Source: Jatrophihabitans sp. GAS493
GTDB taxonomy: Bacteria > Actinomycetota > Actinomycetes > Mycobacteriales > Jatrophihabitantaceae
Assembly (NCBI RefSeq): GCF_900230215.1
Contig: NZ_LT907982.1
Location: 3,953,568-4,017,567 of the forward strand
DNA length: 64,000 nucleotides
Direction: 5' to 3'
Shown piece after piece: positions 32,518 through 54,397 of the stretch (position 1 is its first letter; each line of letters begins with the position of its first letter). Below the pieces are notes generated by a model. It made no database searches. It was not told the origin of the DNA and saw nothing but the letters and a program-made list of their open reading frames with translations. The position numbers were made by a program, and so were the translations under genes.

Positions 32518-32545
32518 CTCATATCGTCCCGAGACTGACCGATAG
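32518..32545 (+). promoter_or_regulatory. Candidate motility-sigma promoter of the cheA operon
   Basis: CTCA at 32518-32521, 16-base spacer, ACCGATAG at 32538-32545. The -35 is an exact match to the FliA-family CTCA; the -10 differs at its first base. It ends 47 bases before the start of the 68-aa gene that precedes cheA. Confidence 0.55.
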
Positions 32546-35845: not shown

Positions 35846-36829
35846 ATGACGATCTCTCTAGTGAGTGCGCCGATCATCGGCTTCGATCTGGTGCGCCACC
35901 CGCACGGGTCGGCGGTGGCTGAGATTCTGCTGCTCGGGCTGAGCCTCGAGGCGCAGGATCTGCCGCTATTTGCCACCGGCTCAGCCAGCGATCCCGGATT
36001 CGGCCTGTGGCGGGCGCGAGCGATCGCGACCGATCCGATCTCCCGCCCGCTGCGCAGCGTCCGGGACACGCGACGCTCCGGTGCAGCGGTGAGCGAAGCA
36101 CGGCCGGTCCAGGCCCGGCCGGCCGATCCGCGGCCGGAGACGAACCCCTCACTGAGCGCGCAGGAGCAGTTGGCCAGCGCCATCGATGCCCTGCTGCACA
36201 GCATGATCATCGATATCGACGTGCTGGAGCAGCTGATCCGCCGCGATGTTCTGGGCTGGTGTACGCCGGGTTCGCCGTTTCCGATGGGCGAGACGGAGTC
36301 CCAGCGAGGAGTGCCGGTTGACCCCGACCACGCCCGCCTGGCCGCCAATGCCCTTGTGGATGCCATCGCCGCCGAATGGGTGGCCGACCTCGATGATGAG
36401 TTCGCCGCCCGGCTGCGCACCCCCCTCGATCGGGTTCGGGGCGGACTCCCCCACCGCGCGCCGAATGTCGGCCCCTGCGCGCTGCCGATCATGCGCATTC
36501 TGCAGGATCTTCGCCAGCTTGGCCCGGACGGCTGTATCCGGCTGCGCGGTGTGAACACCGTGCTCGGTTCGGGCGTCGAGACCTGGGCCGCGGCCGTGCA
36601 CGAGACCTCCTGGGCCGTCATGACAACCGGCCGGGTGCACGCCGCGGCGACTGCGCAACTGCTCGCCGTTCAGGCCTTCGGTGAGAGTGGCCTCAACGCC
36701 GCCGACGGGGCCGAGGGAATCTGGAACATCGTGAGCGGGCACCTGCACGCGAGCGTCGTCGGTGACGTCCTGGCCGAGGAGACCAAGCAGTCGCTGGCCA
36801 AGGCCTGGGTCACTGCGCTCGCCAGCTAG
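35846..36829 (+). CDS. Unknown protein in the chemotaxis cluster
   Basis: A 327-aa protein starting MTISLVSAPIIGFDLVRHPHG. I recognise no domain. It looks soluble, with a polar, Arg/Pro-rich stretch at about residues 68-103 between two more ordered parts (AQEQLASAIDALLHSMIIDIDVLEQLI; ALPIMRILQDLRQLGPDGCIRLRGV). The coding strand is chosen because the opposite frames give only Ser/Arg-rich shadow sequence. It follows cheW by 78 bases on the same strand and converges with cheR, so it may belong to the cheA operon. Confidence 0.7.
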   Translation: MTISLVSAPIIGFDLVRHPHGSAVAEILLLGLSLEAQDLPLFATGSASDPGFGLWRARAIATDPISRPLRSVRDTRRSGAAVSEARPVQARPADPRPETNPSLSAQEQLASAIDALLHSMIIDIDVLEQLIRRDVLGWCTPGSPFPMGETESQRGVPVDPDHARLAANALVDAIAAEWVADLDDEFAARLRTPLDRVRGGLPHRAPNVGPCALPIMRILQDLRQLGPDGCIRLRGVNTVLGSGVETWAAAVHETSWAVMTTGRVHAAATAQLLAVQAFGESGLNAADGAEGIWNIVSGHLHASVVGDVLAEETKQSLAKAWVTALAS

Positions 36830-44388: not shown

Positions 44389-45201
44389 ATGGAACCAACC
44401 CCCTTCTCGCTGGTCAGCTCGATCGCCGCCAACCCGCTCACTGCCCACCAGTTCCGCGCCGAGGTCGATCCTGAGTGGACGATCGGCGGTAAGCCCAATG
44501 GCGGCTACCTGCTGGCTATGATGGGGCGCGCGGCCGCCGCGGTGGGCCAGCACCAGCACGTCATCGCTGCCTCCGCGCACTACCTCAGCTCCCCCGACCC
44601 GGGGCCGGTAAACCTGGAGGCCGAGGTGCTGCGGGGCGGCCGATCGGCTAGCCAGGTCAGAGTTCGTATGGAGCAGGAGGGACGCCCGCGCGTCGAAGCC
44701 CTCTTCACAACCGGCACCCTCGACGTCGACACCAAGCCGTTCTGGGAGGCCGGCCTCCCACCCCGACCGGTCGCCCAACCCGATGAGTGCCTGCGGATCC
44801 CAAGCTCGTCACCCAGCGGGCTGCGGGTGGCGATCATGGATCAGGTGGATCTGCGCATCGAGCCGAGCACCCTCGGATTTGCCAACGGAGCCCCATCAGG
44901 CCGCGGCGAACTGCGCGGGTGGCTGGCCCTGCCCGCCGGCGAGGCCTTCGACCCGACCTCACTGCTCTACGCAGTCGACGCGTTTCCCCCGGCAACTTTC
45001 GAGATCGAGCTGACCGGATGGGTGCCCACGCTGGAACTCACGGTCTACGTTCGCGCGCTCCCCGCCCCCGGGCCGGTGCAGGTTCTGCAGCGGGCTCAGC
45101 TGATCGACGCGCAACGGGTCGACGAGGCCTGCTACGTCTGGGACTCCACCGGACGACTGGTGGCGCATGGAACCCAGCTGGCCGGCATCCGCCTGGGCTG
45201 A
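44389..45201 (+). CDS. Acyl-CoA thioesterase-like protein (double hotdog)
   Basis: A 270-aa protein like the TesB-type thioesterase family common in actinobacteria: WTIGGKPNGGYLLAMMGRAAAA at the first hotdog, HYLSSPDPGPVNLEAEVLRGGRSASQVRVRMEQEG, and FEIELTGWVPTLELTVYVRALPAPGPVQV in the second. The expected substrate is an acyl-CoA. The ATG at 44389 (MEPTPFSLVSSI) is used; a GTG at 44374 is possible. It converges with the PIG-L gene. Confidence 0.82.
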   Translation: MEPTPFSLVSSIAANPLTAHQFRAEVDPEWTIGGKPNGGYLLAMMGRAAAAVGQHQHVIAASAHYLSSPDPGPVNLEAEVLRGGRSASQVRVRMEQEGRPRVEALFTTGTLDVDTKPFWEAGLPPRPVAQPDECLRIPSSSPSGLRVAIMDQVDLRIEPSTLGFANGAPSGRGELRGWLALPAGEAFDPTSLLYAVDAFPPATFEIELTGWVPTLELTVYVRALPAPGPVQVLQRAQLIDAQRVDEACYVWDSTGRLVAHGTQLAGIRLG

Positions 45202-46959: not shown

Positions 46960-46985
46960 CTCACATGGCCTAACGCAGTGCCGAT
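46960..46985 (+). promoter_or_regulatory. Candidate motility-sigma promoter of the chemoreceptor gene
   Basis: CTCA at 46960-46963, 16-base spacer, GCCGAT at 46980-46985. The -35 is exact and the -10 differs from GCCGAA at the last base. It lies 67 bases before the start codon. Confidence 0.55.
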
Positions 46986-47052
46986 GCTGTGGGGGTCAAC
47001 TTTCCACCTGTCGTACCTCGGTTGCGAGGGCGTTTCAATATAGGACCTGCCA

Positions 47053-48720
47053 ATGCCTGAAATCAGCACCGAATCGCGCAGCGCCGCCGCTGCGGAACCG
47101 CAGCGCCGCGGCTTCATCGGCCGGATCGCCGACCTCTCCATCTCTACCAAGGTCATCTCGTTGATCTCGGTCGGCCTCATCGGCATGGTCGCGGTCGGTG
47201 CCGTCGGACTGGTCGGGCTGTCGCGGACCAACCGCTCGGCTCAGCAACTGGTGTCGAACATCGCCGTACGGGCCAATGACTTCGGCGCCACCCGCGAAGC
47301 CTTCGCCCGGATGCGAATCAACCTCGTCCAGGGCGGCACGTTCGCCCGCCCGGCCGACATTCAGGACGGTCTGGAGACGTATGAGAAGAAGAAGGCGATC
47401 ACGCTGGCCGGCCTGCAGAAGTACGCCGCCGGGCCACTGACCCTGAACCAGCGTTCGATCATGGAGAAGACGGTGACCCCCGGCATCGCGCAGATCATCT
47501 CCATCGCCGACGCCAAGCTGATCCCGCTGGCCAAGACCCCGCACACCCAGGCTGAAAACCTTGAGTTCTCCTCGATCTACGGCGATGAGGTCGGACCGAT
47601 CGTCGACTCCCTGCAGGATGCCATCAACGACCTCAGCGCGGTCGACACCGCGCAGCTGCAGTCCGGGCTCCACCACATCGCCGAGACCCGTCGTAGCGCC
47701 AACACCCTGCTGCTGATCATCGTCGCGGCGGCCGCGATCGCCCTGATCGGGATCGGAATCGGCTTGGTGCGCCTGATCGCTCCGCCGATCCGCCGGGTCG
47801 AGGCTGTCCTCGCCGGCTTCGCCGATGGCGACTTCACCGGATCGGCCGGTGTCACCAGCCGCGACGAGATCGGCCGGATGGCCGCCGCCCTCGACCGGGC
47901 CCAGTCCTCGTTGCGCTCGGCCTTCCAGGCGATGAACGCATCGGCCGGCAGCCTGGCCGGCGCGGCCGAGGAACTGAGCACCGTCGGCAGCCAGGTCTTC
48001 ACCAGCGCCGAGCTCACCTCGACACAGTCCACTGCGACCGCCGATGTGGCGCTCGAGGTCTCAGCGAACGTCCAGACCGTCGCCGCCGCCACCGAGCAGA
48101 TGAACGCAAGTGTTCGCGAGATCGCCCAGTCGGCCGCCGGTGCGGCCGAGGTCGCCGCCAGCGCCGTCCATGAAGCGCAGACCGCCACCGACACGGTCAG
48201 CCGTCTCGGCGACTCCAGCTCGGAGGTCGGCGAGGTCATCCGGGTCATCACCAGCATCGCCAAGCAGACCAACCTGCTCGCCCTCAACGCGACCATCGAG
48301 GCCGCCCGCGCGGGCGAGGCCGGCAAGGGATTCGCCGTCGTCGCCAGCGAGGTCAAGGACCTGGCTCAGGCCACGGCGAAGGCCACCGACGACATCGCCG
48401 GGCGTCTGGAGGCCATCCAGTCCGACACCCATGACGCGGTGAGCGCCATCGGTCGAGTCTCCACCGTCATCGAGGAGATCAACCGATTCCAGCTCGTCAT
48501 CGCCTCCGCGGTTGAGGAGCAGTCGGCCGCCACCGCCGAGATCGCCCGCAATGTGCACAACGCCGCCGACGGCGCGGAGGAGATTTCGCGCAACCTGACC
48601 TCAGTCGTCGAGTCGGCCCGCAGCTCCAGCGAGGGCACCGGCCAGTCGGAGCGCTCCGCCCTCGAAGTGGCCCGGCTCTCGGTCGACCTGCGTCACTCGC
48701 TGTCGGGCTTCAAAGTCTGA
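47053..48720 (+). CDS. Methyl-accepting chemotaxis protein
   Basis: A 555-aa chemoreceptor: cytoplasmic N-tail, first membrane helix ([23 protein letters not shown], about 34-56), an external four-helix-type sensor domain of about 160 residues with MRINLVQGG, second helix ([21 protein letters not shown], about 218-238), HAMP, and the signalling domain with the conserved tip [37 protein letters not shown]. It has no C-terminal CheR-docking pentapeptide. The ligand is unknown. Its 3' end overlaps the convergent acetyltransferase gene by 11 bases. Confidence 0.95.
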
Positions 48721-50385: not shown

Positions 50386-51836
50386 TGCCCCCGCTGGACG
50401 CGGTGGTCGTCGGATCGGGGCCGAACGGGCTGGCCGCGGCCCTGACCCTGGCCGAATCCGGTCTCAGTGTGCGGGTCATCGAGGCGTCCAGCGGCCCCGG
50501 CGGGGGTTGCCGCACGGCCGAACTCACGCTTCCAGGCTTTCGGCATGACGTCTGCTCAACGGTGCAGTCGATGGTGGAACTCTCCTCGTTCTTCACCGGT
50601 CTGAACCTCACCGACCTCGGAGTCCGGCTACTCCGCCCGCAGATCGCCTACGCACAGCCGCTCGACGGCGGCCGGGCCGCGCTCGGATTCAGCGACCTGG
50701 AGGCAACGGCGGCCGGCCTCGGCCGCGACGCCTCCGCGTGGCGGCGACTACTCGCCCCGCTGCTCCACCGGTCCGAGCAGCTCTTCCCCGAAGTACTCGG
50801 GGATCTGCGCCGGCCTCCGCGGCATCCCGTCACGCTGTGCCGCTTCGGGCTGCCGGGTCTGGTGCCGGCCACGACACTGGCCGCGGGTCTCTTCCGGGAG
50901 GAGTCGACCCGCGCCCTCTTCGCCGGTCTGGCCGCGCACAGCATGCGCAGTCTGCATGCGCCGCTCACCTCAGCCTTTGCCATGGTGCTTGCGTTGAGCG
51001 CGCATGTGGGTGGCTGGCCGGTGGTCGAGGGTGGCAGCGTGGCGATCAGCGACGCTCTGGTGCGCCGGTTGGTGGAACTCGGCGTGGAGTTCGAGTACGA
51101 CCACGAGGTGACATCGCTGGCCGAGCTGCCACCCAGCCGGGTCACCCTGCTCGACCTCTCACCCCGGCAACTTCTGCGGATCGGCGCAGACCGGTTGCCA
51201 CCTCGCTATCGCCGCCAACTGCAGCGTTTCCGCTACGGACCGGGAAGCTTCAAGGTCGACTACGCCCTCAGCGAGGCGGTGCCCTGGGCGAACCGTGACT
51301 GCCGGCGGGCGGGCACTCTGCACGTCGGAGGCTCGATGGCCGAGATCGCAGCCAGTGAGGGCCGGGTCGAAGCCGGCCGGCATAGTGACACCCCATACGT
51401 GCTCGTAGTGCAGCCGAGCGTGGTCGACCCAACTCGTGCGCCGGCCGGAAAGCACACTCTCTGGGCCTACTGTCACGTGCCGAACGGCTCGGCCCTTGAT
51501 CGCACCGAGGCGGTGGAGCGCCAGATCGAGCGGTTCGCACCGGGCTTCCGGGATGTCGTACTGGCCCGCTCTACCCGGACGGCCGCTGAATACCAGCGGT
51601 ACAACCCGAACTACGTCGGCGGCGACATCAATGCCGGGCGGGCCGGGGTGGCCGCCGCGTTCCTGGGTCCGGTTCCGGGCGGGTTACGGTACGCACCGCT
51701 GCCCCGATGGTCTCGCTATCGCACCGCCCTGCCCGGCGTCTACCTCTGTTCGGCCTCAACGCCTCCGGGCGGCGGCGTACACGGCATGTGTGGTCAGAAT
51801 GCAGCCCGGGAAGCCATCGCCCGCGAGTTCGCCTGA
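50385..51836 (+). CDS. Phytoene desaturase-like FAD-dependent oxidoreductase
   Basis: A 483-aa flavoenzyme of the phytoene desaturase/amine oxidase type. The FAD-binding motif is AVVVGSGPNGLAAALTLAESGLSVRVIEA with GPGGGCRTAELTLPGF close behind, and the C-terminal cofactor motif is YLCSASTPPGGGVHGMCGQNAAREA. Other carotenoid genes are not next to it, so its substrate is uncertain. The ATG at 50385 overlaps the YjbR-like gene by one base of TGATG. Confidence 0.88.
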   Translation: MPPLDAVVVGSGPNGLAAALTLAESGLSVRVIEASSGPGGGCRTAELTLPGFRHDVCSTVQSMVELSSFFTGLNLTDLGVRLLRPQIAYAQPLDGGRAALGFSDLEATAAGLGRDASAWRRLLAPLLHRSEQLFPEVLGDLRRPPRHPVTLCRFGLPGLVPATTLAAGLFREESTRALFAGLAAHSMRSLHAPLTSAFAMVLALSAHVGGWPVVEGGSVAISDALVRRLVELGVEFEYDHEVTSLAELPPSRVTLLDLSPRQLLRIGADRLPPRYRRQLQRFRYGPGSFKVDYALSEAVPWANRDCRRAGTLHVGGSMAEIAASEGRVEAGRHSDTPYVLVVQPSVVDPTRAPAGKHTLWAYCHVPNGSALDRTEAVERQIERFAPGFRDVVLARSTRTAAEYQRYNPNYVGGDINAGRAGVAAAFLGPVPGGLRYAPLPRWSRYRTALPGVYLCSASTPPGGGVHGMCGQNAAREAIAREFA

Positions 51837-51853
51837 GAGGGCTGGGTCTGCCG

Positions 51854-52252
51854 TTACTTCGTGCGGCGCACGAAGCTGGCCATCGCCGCGCCGTGATCGG
51901 CACAAGGATACATCACCAGTAACCCGTCGTCGGCCGCGTGCGTGTGGAAGGCGGCCTGAACAACCGTCGGCACTTCGGCCAGCACCAGCGTTCCCCGATC
52001 AGCCAGCACCCGGCGGTGCGCGGCGACCACGGTCTGCACACCGACAACGTCGATTACGGTCACGTCGGAGAGGTCCATGCGAATGAACTTTCGCCGATGA
52101 CTGAGCTGCACATCGATCAGGGCCGCCACCAGTTCGGCGCTCCCACAGTCCATGCTTCCAGATACCTTGATGTATGAGCGGCCACCTTCGCTGCGCAGGG
52201 CGTCCACGCGCAGCGTCGACATCTCATCCGACGCGCTCAGAGTCGATTCCAT
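51854..52252 (-). CDS. STAS-domain anti-anti-sigma factor-like protein
   Basis: A 132-aa STAS protein like SpoIIAA/RsbV: a beta strand YIKVSGSMDCGSAELVAALI and the phosphorylation loop region RMDLSDVTVIDVVGVQTVVAAHRRV. The usual DSSG serine is replaced: the loop reads TVIDVVGV, so classic phosphorylation by an anti-sigma kinase may not apply. No kinase gene is adjacent. GAGAGGAA precedes the ATG at 52252. A SigB-type promoter pattern lies upstream. Confidence 0.82.
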   Translation of the reverse strand: MESTLSASDEMSTLRVDALRSEGGRSYIKVSGSMDCGSAELVAALIDVQLSHRRKFIRMDLSDVTVIDVVGVQTVVAAHRRVLADRGTLVLAEVPTVVQAAFHTHAADDGLLVMYPCADHGAAMASFVRRTK

Positions 52253-52332
52253 CGTCAGTTCCTCTCCCCGCGGCCTTAGTCAGCTTCCGACAGGAGATCC
52301 ACCGCAACCCTCGACCGTCCGTCGAAGCTCAA

Positions 52333-52358
52333 TTACCCGCAGCTAGAAATTCATAAAC
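52333..52358 (-). promoter_or_regulatory. Candidate SigB/SigF-type promoter of the STAS gene
   Basis: Minus strand: GTTT at 52358-52355, 16-base spacer, GGGTAA at 52338-52333. The consensus for general-stress sigma factors in Gram-positives is GTTT-N15/17-GGGTAT. Only the last base differs. The site is 81 bases before the start codon. Confidence 0.5.
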
Positions 52359-52393
52359 ATCCGCCTGCCCATCATCCTCTTTTCCGCCCCGAG

Positions 52394-52421
52394 CTCAACC
52401 CTCTGCCACCGCCGCCGATAG
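52394..52421 (+). promoter_or_regulatory. Candidate motility-sigma promoter of the unknown 196-aa gene
   Basis: CTCA at 52394-52397, 16-base spacer, GCCGATAG at 52414-52421. -35 exact, -10 one base off GCCGAA. The -10 is 33 bases before the start codon at 52455. Confidence 0.55.
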
Positions 52422-52454
52422 GGGTGCCAGCAGGTCCGACGAAAGGGACTGAGG

Positions 52455-53045
52455 ATGGTCGCCAAGGTGATCAGTTTTGACACTCTGCGTAGCGCCGGGT
52501 CACGTCGCAGGGGCACGGTCGGTGTCGGCGGCTCCGTCGGTGCCGTGGATGGTTACGCGGATCGTTACGGGGTGGCAACCGGGCAGGCCGGGCAACCCCG
52601 GCAACTCAGGCCGCACCCTGTCATCACCGGCAGTGTGCGCGGCGGTGGCAGCGCCGAGGTCGACCTCGCCGTATCCCTGCTGCGCTCGATCACCGATGGC
52701 ACTGACGTGCTGAGCCGCCTCACCGGACTCCCTTTCGCCGATGGGCATGAGCCCGACTTCCTCGCGGTTCGCCGCGGCCCGAATGTGCCGGGCGTGCTCC
52801 CGGGTGGCTTCACGACGACCGGCTGGACCGACGCGGCCGGCAACACCGTTACCTGGTTCGCCGCTGGACGGCAGCCCCACGCGTATCAGGGCGTCACCGT
52901 GCTCTACGCCGACGGCAGCACGCGGGATGATCATGCGCACCTGTGCCGGGTGGCGCTGGAGGGGCTCTCCCGGCACCTGCAGGTCGCCAGCCGCCCACGT
53001 GCGAGAAATGTTCATCCGCTGAAGCCGTCGTTGACCCCGGCCTGA
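52455..53045 (+). CDS. Unknown protein, possible motility regulon member
   Basis: A 196-aa protein beginning MVAKVISFDTLRSAGSRRRG. The N-terminal 60 residues are Gly/Arg-rich and probably disordered; the rest (VDLAVSLLRSITDGTDVLSRLTG and TWFAAGRQPHAYQGVTVLYADGSTRDDHAHLCRVALEGL) looks folded. No signal peptide, membrane helix or known domain is seen. GGGACTGAGG precedes the ATG at 52455. Its promoter pattern matches the chemotaxis operons of the window. Confidence 0.75.
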   Translation: MVAKVISFDTLRSAGSRRRGTVGVGGSVGAVDGYADRYGVATGQAGQPRQLRPHPVITGSVRGGGSAEVDLAVSLLRSITDGTDVLSRLTGLPFADGHEPDFLAVRRGPNVPGVLPGGFTTTGWTDAAGNTVTWFAAGRQPHAYQGVTVLYADGSTRDDHAHLCRVALEGLSRHLQVASRPRARNVHPLKPSLTPA

Positions 53046-53071
53046 CCCACCGCCTCTGTCAGTATCGGTAG

Positions 53072-54397
53072 GTGCGCTCTCCCGATGGCCCGACCGGCCC
53101 AGACCAGGCTGGGCAGAACCTGACGGGCCCAGACCCGGCTGCGCGTCGAAGCGTCGAGTGGCTCGGCGTGCGCACCCTGGCCGTGCTCGTCCTCACCGGA
53201 CTCGGCGCCGGCGCGGGCGGCGTGGGGCTCACGCTGCTGCTTCATCTCATCCAGCACCTGGCCTTCGGCTATACCGAGAACACCTTCCTCATCGGTGTCG
53301 AACATGCCTCCGGTCGACGGCGGGTCATCGCGATGACTATCGGTGGCCTCATCGTCGGACTCGGGTGGTGGGCCCAGCGAGCCCATCTGACGATCGTCAC
53401 CGTTCGCGAAGCGCTGCGTGAGCGCCGGCCGCGCCTGCCCATCCCCAGCACGCTCTTCGACTCCATCCTGCAGATCACCGCGGTCGGTTTCGGCGCGTCG
53501 CTCGGACGGGAGGGAGCACCGCGGCAGCTCGGTGCCTCGATCGGCGTGTGGCTGGCCGCGCGGGCCGGCTTGTCACTCGACCAGCAGCGCACCATCATGG
53601 CCTGCGGAGCCGGAGCCGGGCTGGCGGCGGTCTACAACGTGCCGCTCGGCGGAGCGCTCTTCACGCTGGAGGTGCTGCTCGCCTCGGCGGCCCGTGCCGA
53701 CATCGTCGCGGCGGTGCTGACCAGTGCCACGGCCACCGCCGTCGCCTGGCCGGTCCTCTCCAACCGCCCGACCTACACCGTCGCCGAGCTACATCTGACC
53801 GCGACGGCGTTCACCTGGGCCATCGTCTTCGGCCCCATCGCCGGCGTCGCCGGGGCGGCCTTCATGCGCCTGGCCGCCGTCGCGTTGCGCCACCAGCCCC
53901 ACGGCTGGCACCTCCCGGTCTTCACCACCTTCACCTTCGCCCTGGTCGGGGTTGTCGCCATCGGGTTCCCGCAACTGCTCGGCAACGGAAAGGGCGCCGC
54001 GCAACTGGCCTTCGACGCGACCCCGACGATCGCGTTGCTGGCCACGCTGGCCCTGTTGAAACCACTGGCCACCGCCCTCTGCCTGCGCAGCGGGGCCACC
54101 GGTGGGCTGCTCACTCCGGCGCTGGCCACCGGGGCACTACTGGGGGCAGCCGCGGGCGGGGTGTGGACAATGTTCTGGCCCGGCAGCCCACTCGCCGCGT
54201 TCGCAATCATCGGGGCAGCGGCCGTGCTGGCGACGACCCAGCGGGCCCCGCTGACCGCGATCGCGCTGGTCATCGAGTTCACCCACACCGGTGAGACGCT
54301 GCTCGTCCCGATCATGATCGCGGTGGGGACAGCGACTCTGACATCCCAGCATCTGCCGGCCTGGAGCCACCTCACCAACGCCCACACCGCGACCTGA
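53072..54397 (+). CDS. ClC-family chloride channel or H+/Cl- antiporter
   Basis: A 441-aa membrane protein with the ClC selectivity motifs GREGAPRQLGA (GREGP type), ACGAGAGLAAVYNVPLGGALFTLEVLL (the GxFxP region reading AVYNVP) and GATGGLLTPALATGALLG. The protein conducts or exchanges chloride. The alanine after GREG instead of the usual Pro is a small departure. Two C-terminal CBS domains are absent. The start is the GTG at 53072. Confidence 0.93.
   Translation: MRSPDGPTGPDQAGQNLTGPDPAARRSVEWLGVRTLAVLVLTGLGAGAGGVGLTLLLHLIQHLAFGYTENTFLIGVEHASGRRRVIAMTIGGLIVGLGWWAQRAHLTIVTVREALRERRPRLPIPSTLFDSILQITAVGFGASLGREGAPRQLGASIGVWLAARAGLSLDQQRTIMACGAGAGLAAVYNVPLGGALFTLEVLLASAARADIVAAVLTSATATAVAWPVLSNRPTYTVAELHLTATAFTWAIVFGPIAGVAGAAFMRLAAVALRHQPHGWHLPVFTTFTFALVGVVAIGFPQLLGNGKGAAQLAFDATPTIALLATLALLKPLATALCLRSGATGGLLTPALATGALLGAAAGGVWTMFWPGSPLAAFAIIGAAAVLATTQRAPLTAIALVIEFTHTGETLLVPIMIAVGTATLTSQHLPAWSHLTNAHTAT

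Follow-up and report, generated by a model that had tools for sequence, protein, structure and literature searches.

In Jatrophihabitans sp. GAS493 a lineage-specific gene is likely to be transcribed from a genuine FliA (sigma-28)-type promoter, and its 196-aa product is a predicted soluble accessory protein that may tune the motile state. The promoter, CTCA-N16-GCCGATAG, occupies positions 52394-52421 on the plus strand of the window (the whole 64-kb stretch of DNA that was analysed) and lies 33 bases 5' of the ATG at 52455, exactly where a sequence-only reading had placed it. That reading had proposed the gene as a new member of the motility regulon, and at the level of sequence the proposal is supported: the boxes are exact and separated by the spacing found elsewhere in the regulon, the site is intergenic and well placed before a same-strand start, the promoter is kept in the orthologue from one other species, and the genome encodes a FliA-type sigma factor together with flagellar genes. 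The surroundings are also as described. The nearest chemoreceptor ORF (47053-48720), which encodes an MCP signalling domain, ends 3.7 kb before the site, and the che core is far off at about 29-39 kb (CheA, CheW, CheB and CheX by family match, the others by eye). Within this che cluster, directly 3' of cheW, we also observed a 327-aa ORF (35846-36829, plus strand) that has no Pfam match and is overlapped on the opposite strand by a 262-aa ORF. The features are collected in Table 1.

Table 1. Positions of the candidate promoter, its gene, neighbouring and comparison features, and members of the protein family; numbers without a prefix are window positions.
Feature	Position	Strand	Evidence or remark
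Comparison FliA-type promoter, 5' of cheA operon	32518..32544	+	One mismatch, 16-base spacer, weight matrix
Comparison FliA-type promoter, 5' of chemoreceptor gene	46960..46986	+	One mismatch, 16-base spacer, weight matrix
STAS-domain gene, 132 aa, divergent	51854..52252	-	Domain match; syntenic in same-genus genome
GTTT-N16-GGGTAA, SigB/SigF-like promoter for STAS gene	52333..52358	-	Boxes and spacing kept in sister genome (alignment, by eye)
-35 element CTCA	52394..52397	+	Window sequence; kept in same-genus orthologue
-10 element GCCGATAG	52414..52421	+	16 bases past CTCA; weight matrix; kept in orthologue
Leader, 33 bases	52422..52454	+	Identical in same-genus orthologue; contains GCCAGCAGGT
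196-aa ORF	52455..53045	+	No known domain; detected in two species of a single genus only
Voltage_CLC gene	53072..54397	+	Start 53072 or 53168; 3' of 196-aa ORF, same direction
239-aa paralogue, this genome	L033:9381-10097	+	Shared C-terminal core
231-aa paralogue, sister genome	L035:9881-10574	-	Shared C-terminal core
131-aa paralogue, sister genome	L034:9848-10240	+	Shared C-terminal core

The spacer had been noted as identical in length to that of the che promoters, and this holds for the promoters of the cheA operon and the chemoreceptor gene, each of which has one mismatch to CTCA-N16-GCCGATA. The site at 52394 is the only exact match to this pattern in the window. Four matches with at most one mismatch were found, the fourth being located at 44584, where 0.97 would be expected, and 2 of 100 shuffled windows reached this number. 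When both strands of the window were scored with a weight matrix built from ten other flagellar and che sites, the 52394 site ranked at the top of all positions, ahead of the promoters of the cheA operon (32518) and the chemoreceptor gene (46960); an equally good site was present in 7 of 200 dinucleotide-shuffled windows, a mean of 0.035 per shuffled window. This score is partly circular, because the training sites were themselves chosen by pattern. The comparison of spacers and the evidence from the orthologue are independent of the matrix.

A scan of the genome, which covered the single 4.88-Mb contig with ORF starts taken from a simple gene caller, revealed seven copies of CTCA-N16-GCCGATA against one for a reversed-pattern control. 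All seven are intergenic, and in each case a predicted ORF begins on the same strand 8-86 bases further on. By family matches, five of the targets encode a PAS-GGDEF protein, FlbD, an Acetyltransf_6 protein, a GGDEF-EAL protein and a chemoreceptor; the remaining two are a gene for a chemoreceptor-like protein (by eye) and the 196-aa gene. The same boxes separated by 14, 15, 17 or 18 bases occur at ten sites, none of which is near a predicted start: five lie within predicted genes and five are intergenic, one of these in 16S rRNA (by eye). Since proximity to a start is seen at 7/7 sites with the 16-base spacer and at 0/10 with the others, a spacing of 16 bases is characteristic of functional sites in this genome.

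Relaxation of the motif to CTCA-N16-GCCGAT gave 49 sites in the whole genome (14 for the reversed control) and 47 in the genome of a second species of the genus, termed here the sister genome (control 10). In the former set, 18 sites are intergenic with an ORF start no more than 160 bases away, 7 are intergenic without a start nearby and 24 fall within predicted genes, so that the relaxed motif alone is no proof of a promoter. Family matches support the targets of 13 of the 18 promoter-proximal sites, namely FlbD (1), chemoreceptor (2), GGDEF or GGDEF-EAL (6), glycosyltransferase (2), FdtA (1) and GNAT acetyltransferase (1). Three more were named by eye (FlgB-, FliM- and chemoreceptor-like), so that in this exact-spacing set only two genes, the 196-aa gene and a 78-aa ORF, lack an explanation. 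The 78-aa ORF (L074:1562-1795) has no Pfam match and carries its site 34 bases upstream, a site also found in the sister genome (L123). A strong link between FliA and the turnover of c-di-GMP is suggested for this organism, because six GGDEF or GGDEF-EAL genes (in L073, L001, L085, L094, L140 and L004) bear FliA-type sites. A conserved FliA-like site of the form CTTA-N16-ACCGATA was also observed 5' of a 236/235-aa ORF (L030:9753-9779 and, on the minus strand, L039:6880-6906); the L030 copy of this ORF has no match in Pfam.

The flagellar cluster is located at about 923-960 kb of the genome and contains FlhA, FlgN, the FliW and CsrA genes, and ORFs that by eye resemble flagellin, FliD, FlgK and FlgL; a match to FliJ fell below the cut-off. 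The best model for the sigma factor encoded in this cluster is FliA_WhiG (TIGR02479), at 173.4 bits and thus below the curated cut-off of 189.6. The next sigma factors score no more than 121.6 bits against the same model, which leaves one clearly best FliA-type candidate in the genome. FlgM was not detected among ten proteins scanned, of which the flagellar region supplied six.

The orthologue in the sister genome is 77-79% identical, with a value of 78% for the coding region. Its promoter retains CTCA, the 16-base spacing and GCCGATAG, while most of the spacer sequence and the upstream DNA have diverged. It is extremely unlikely that the match is due to chance and that another sigma factor transcribes the gene. 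The motif in its relaxed forms does fall inside genes, and one exact match in a window is no proof by itself, but only 0.035 sites of this quality are expected per window, this one lies 33 bases from an ATG, it has been kept in the orthologue despite the changed spacer, and no sigma-70-like site was found in the interval 51800-53300.

An identical stretch of 66 bases spans the -10 element, the leader and the first codons in the two species. Identical runs at other promoters comprise 162 (fliC), 122 (flgB), 65 (fliM) and 47 (flbD) bases, with shorter runs of 37 (glycosyltransferase), 29 (flhA) and 11 (chemoreceptor) bases; because these range from 162 to 11, the leader of the 196-aa gene is to be regarded as well kept and not as unique. 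Its identity prompted a search for a structured RNA, which was rejected: the four Rfam matches (E 4.7-9) are all far below gathering scores, and the predicted fold is no better than that of shuffled sequences (z -0.68). Control of the leader by CsrA may be considered a candidate mechanism, the genes for both CsrA and FliW being present. The element GCCAGCAGGT (52422-52441) also occurs, in register after the -10 element, in the leader of a glycosyltransferase gene of the flagellar cluster (L041, 930.8 kb). The likeness amounts to a 10-base in-register run, a length reached in 21 of 2000 shuffles over 22 leaders. A wider form of this leader pattern has four exact matches in the genome, and by eye only those in the 196-aa gene and glycosyltransferase leaders stand behind a FliA-type promoter. 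We treat the possible connection between the two genes as a lead only.

The 196-aa ORF is under purifying selection (dN/dS 0.225), and substitutions in its frame are distributed 24/18/70 over codon positions 1, 2 and 3, so that 70 of 112 fall at third positions. An antisense ORF (52500-53015) is ruled out as the true gene by this pattern. The earlier description of a protein with no recognisable domain proved accurate, as Pfam, NCBIfam, PHROGs, PADLOC and the sequences in the PDB all failed to give a match, and none of the family models for known core flagellar or chemotaxis proteins is matched. In particular, the absence of a FlgM domain, and of any Pfam match, gives no indication of an anti-sigma factor of the FlgM type. 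Neither a signal peptide nor a membrane helix is apparent by eye, and an AlphaFold model from the single sequence was unusable (mean pLDDT 34). We know of no E. coli relative of this gene. Literature searches on actinobacterial FliA targets and on orphan genes with FliA listed no paper whose title or opening abstract lines deal with the family, which is a weak negative for a family without a locus tag.

Twenty-four genomes of the taxonomic family were searched, 12 of which are less than 90% complete or more than 5% contaminated; the gene was detected in 2 of the 24 and FlhA in 15. In this profile against flagellar genes, a check suggested in the sequence-only reading, both carriers have FlhA, but there is no family-wide co-occurrence (2/24 versus 15/24). 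Orthologues common in non-motile actinobacteria, which had been named as evidence against regulon membership, did not appear in our samples, in which a limited number of candidates was scored per genome. Matches were present in 3 of 397 genomes sampled from the order, 2 of 394 from the class and 1 of 396 from the phylum, the own genome being counted in each; these samples overlap, and seven first-look candidates were scored in each genome listed. A scan of genome contigs, in a database that may omit records very near the source genome, returned 40 stretches with the pattern, none confirmed, and 33 such stretches in viral contigs likewise yielded no confirmed relative. The two matches outside the genus are weak, one (G823, E 1.5e-4) being judged chance as it lies opposite a predicted gene and the other (G158, E 6.3e-4) being interrupted by an internal stop; no relative was accepted outside the genus. 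The restriction of the gene to 2 of 24 genomes, compared with 15 of 24 for FlhA, and the lack of family matches identify a lineage-specific accessory and not a part of the core motility machinery.

Within the genus, two family members are encoded in this genome and three in the sister genome. Common to all five is a C-terminal core of roughly 100 residues (D..LS.LTG...PD.L.VR.G...F.T..W.D..G...WF..G.QP.A..GV.V), but the paralogues differ from the 196-aa gene and its orthologue in having a gene for an Ig-like protein upstream and no good FliA promoter; no FliA-type site with two or fewer mismatches lies directly 5' of their starts. Each of the three paralogues lies 3' of a large co-directional ORF, without an intervening predicted gene; for the L033 paralogue this ORF comprises 765 aa. 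This ORF looks secreted by eye and gives a Big_1 match of 28.4 bits, under the cut-off of 34.9. The L035 counterpart occupies the same position after a 762-aa ORF that resembles it by eye, and the L034 paralogue comes after a 1633-aa ORF in which Big_3_5 domains were matched (133.3 bits) and which also looks secreted by eye; this paralogue has a convergent STAS gene on its other side. A weak conserved FliA-like site was observed 5' of the 765- and 762-aa ORFs (L033:6874-6900 and, on the minus strand, L035:13078-13104), with a score of 14.8 in both.

These arrangements raise the possibility, which we regard as tentative and on balance unlikely, that the promoter is read by FliA but the product serves the surface or adhesion, FliA having recruited this copy for the transition from swimming to attached life. 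The position of the other family members behind genes for large, secreted-looking proteins with Ig-like domains (765, 762 and 1633 aa) would fit such a role, as would the weak site shared by the first two of these. The 196-aa gene, however, has no neighbour of this kind and adjoins STAS, oxidoreductase and Clc genes. The order chemoreceptor, GNAT, oxidoreductase, STAS, 196-aa gene, Clc is kept in the sister genome (genes identified there by eye), except that a different gene lies between GNAT and oxidoreductase in each genome. No terminator-like site was found between the 196-aa ORF and the Voltage_CLC gene, and the two are possibly co-transcribed.

Upstream, two promoters for alternative sigma factors appear to face apart in one intergenic region of 200 bases. 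The second, GTTT-N16-GGGTAA, which we take to be of the SigB/SigF consensus type, is the sole copy in the window and was absent from 100 shuffles; in the sister genome both of its boxes and the distance between them persist, with an altered spacer sequence. This configuration could indicate that the 196-aa protein is a regulator that acts with the divergent STAS protein to join motility to stress partner-switching (FliA versus a SigB/SigF-type factor), a role that we think distinctly improbable. It is consistent with the conservation of both promoters, with the STAS gene adjoining the L034 paralogue and with the presence of a second sigma factor that scores 121.6 bits against the FliA_WhiG model; it is nevertheless an argument from adjacency, inspection by eye of 20-kb stretches surrounding the other two paralogues showed no STAS gene, and the STAS protein seemingly lacks the usual serine (by eye). 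A further suggestion, that the protein feeds back on the FliA programme as a lineage-specific regulator and would provide a replacement control trading motility against the stress response, is very unlikely in our estimation. It arises because the gene for a genus-restricted, predicted FliA-induced protein adjoins a STAS gene that has a SigB/SigF-type promoter, and because the flagellated actinobacteria sequenced by 2008 were reported to lack flgM (PMC2587704).

Our preferred explanation remains a FliA-driven accessory gene. According to this model, FliA-holoenzyme would recognise CTCA and, 16 bases further on, GCCGATAG, transcription would begin a few bases 3', and the resulting mRNA would have a leader of about 30 bases. 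The 196-aa protein is probably produced along with the swimming machinery and would appear together with the late flagellar, chemoreceptor and c-di-GMP proteins, a dependence on FliA and a timing that we infer from the promoter. In the least certain step, a soluble cytoplasmic protein would tune the motile state and would not take part in building the flagellum. Tuning is favoured over building because, of the 15 genomes in the taxonomic family that have FlhA, 13 do without the gene. Its restriction to one genus argues against a structural or core chemotaxis component. Membership of the FliA regulon alone does not prove a role in swimming, given those 13 genomes and the other functions that FliA/WhiG sigma factors also drive. 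If the model is correct, the gene would represent a firm case of an orphan family captured by a flagellar sigma factor, and much of the regulon in this genus could be read from a definition of the FliA promoter based on the 16-base spacer.

Targets beyond the flagellum have been described for this group of sigma factors. Pili and c-di-GMP enzymes are among the products whose expression actinobacterial members of the FliA/WhiG family drive (PMC8325347), and such factors have roles in sporangium formation and spore dormancy (PMC13293333). Predicted sites are not always active: a looser search for FliA/WhiG promoters in Rubrobacter radiotolerans gave 20 candidates, 12 of them with a matching start site (PMC8325347), and in E. 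coli 30 of 52 FliA sites are inside genes, many are silent and 14 of the 52 are associated with a significant change in expression (PMC4183435). An exact, conserved and well-placed site such as that at 52394 should have better odds than the average site in either organism. The E. coli regulon resembles the one proposed here in that late flagellar genes and other genes are transcribed by FliA (PMC4183435). The -10 core GCCGATA(A) is common to R. radiotolerans and the present genome, whereas the -35 element is TAAA in the former (PMC8325347) and CTCA in the latter, where working sites have a 16-base spacer. The targets differ as well, with many flagellar and chemotaxis genes here in place of the type IV pili of R. 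radiotolerans (PMC8325347). DGC/PDE genes are nevertheless prominent in both, accounting for 5 of 12 mapped promoters in R. radiotolerans (PMC8325347) and 6 of the 18 promoter-proximal sites with exact spacing in our analysis.
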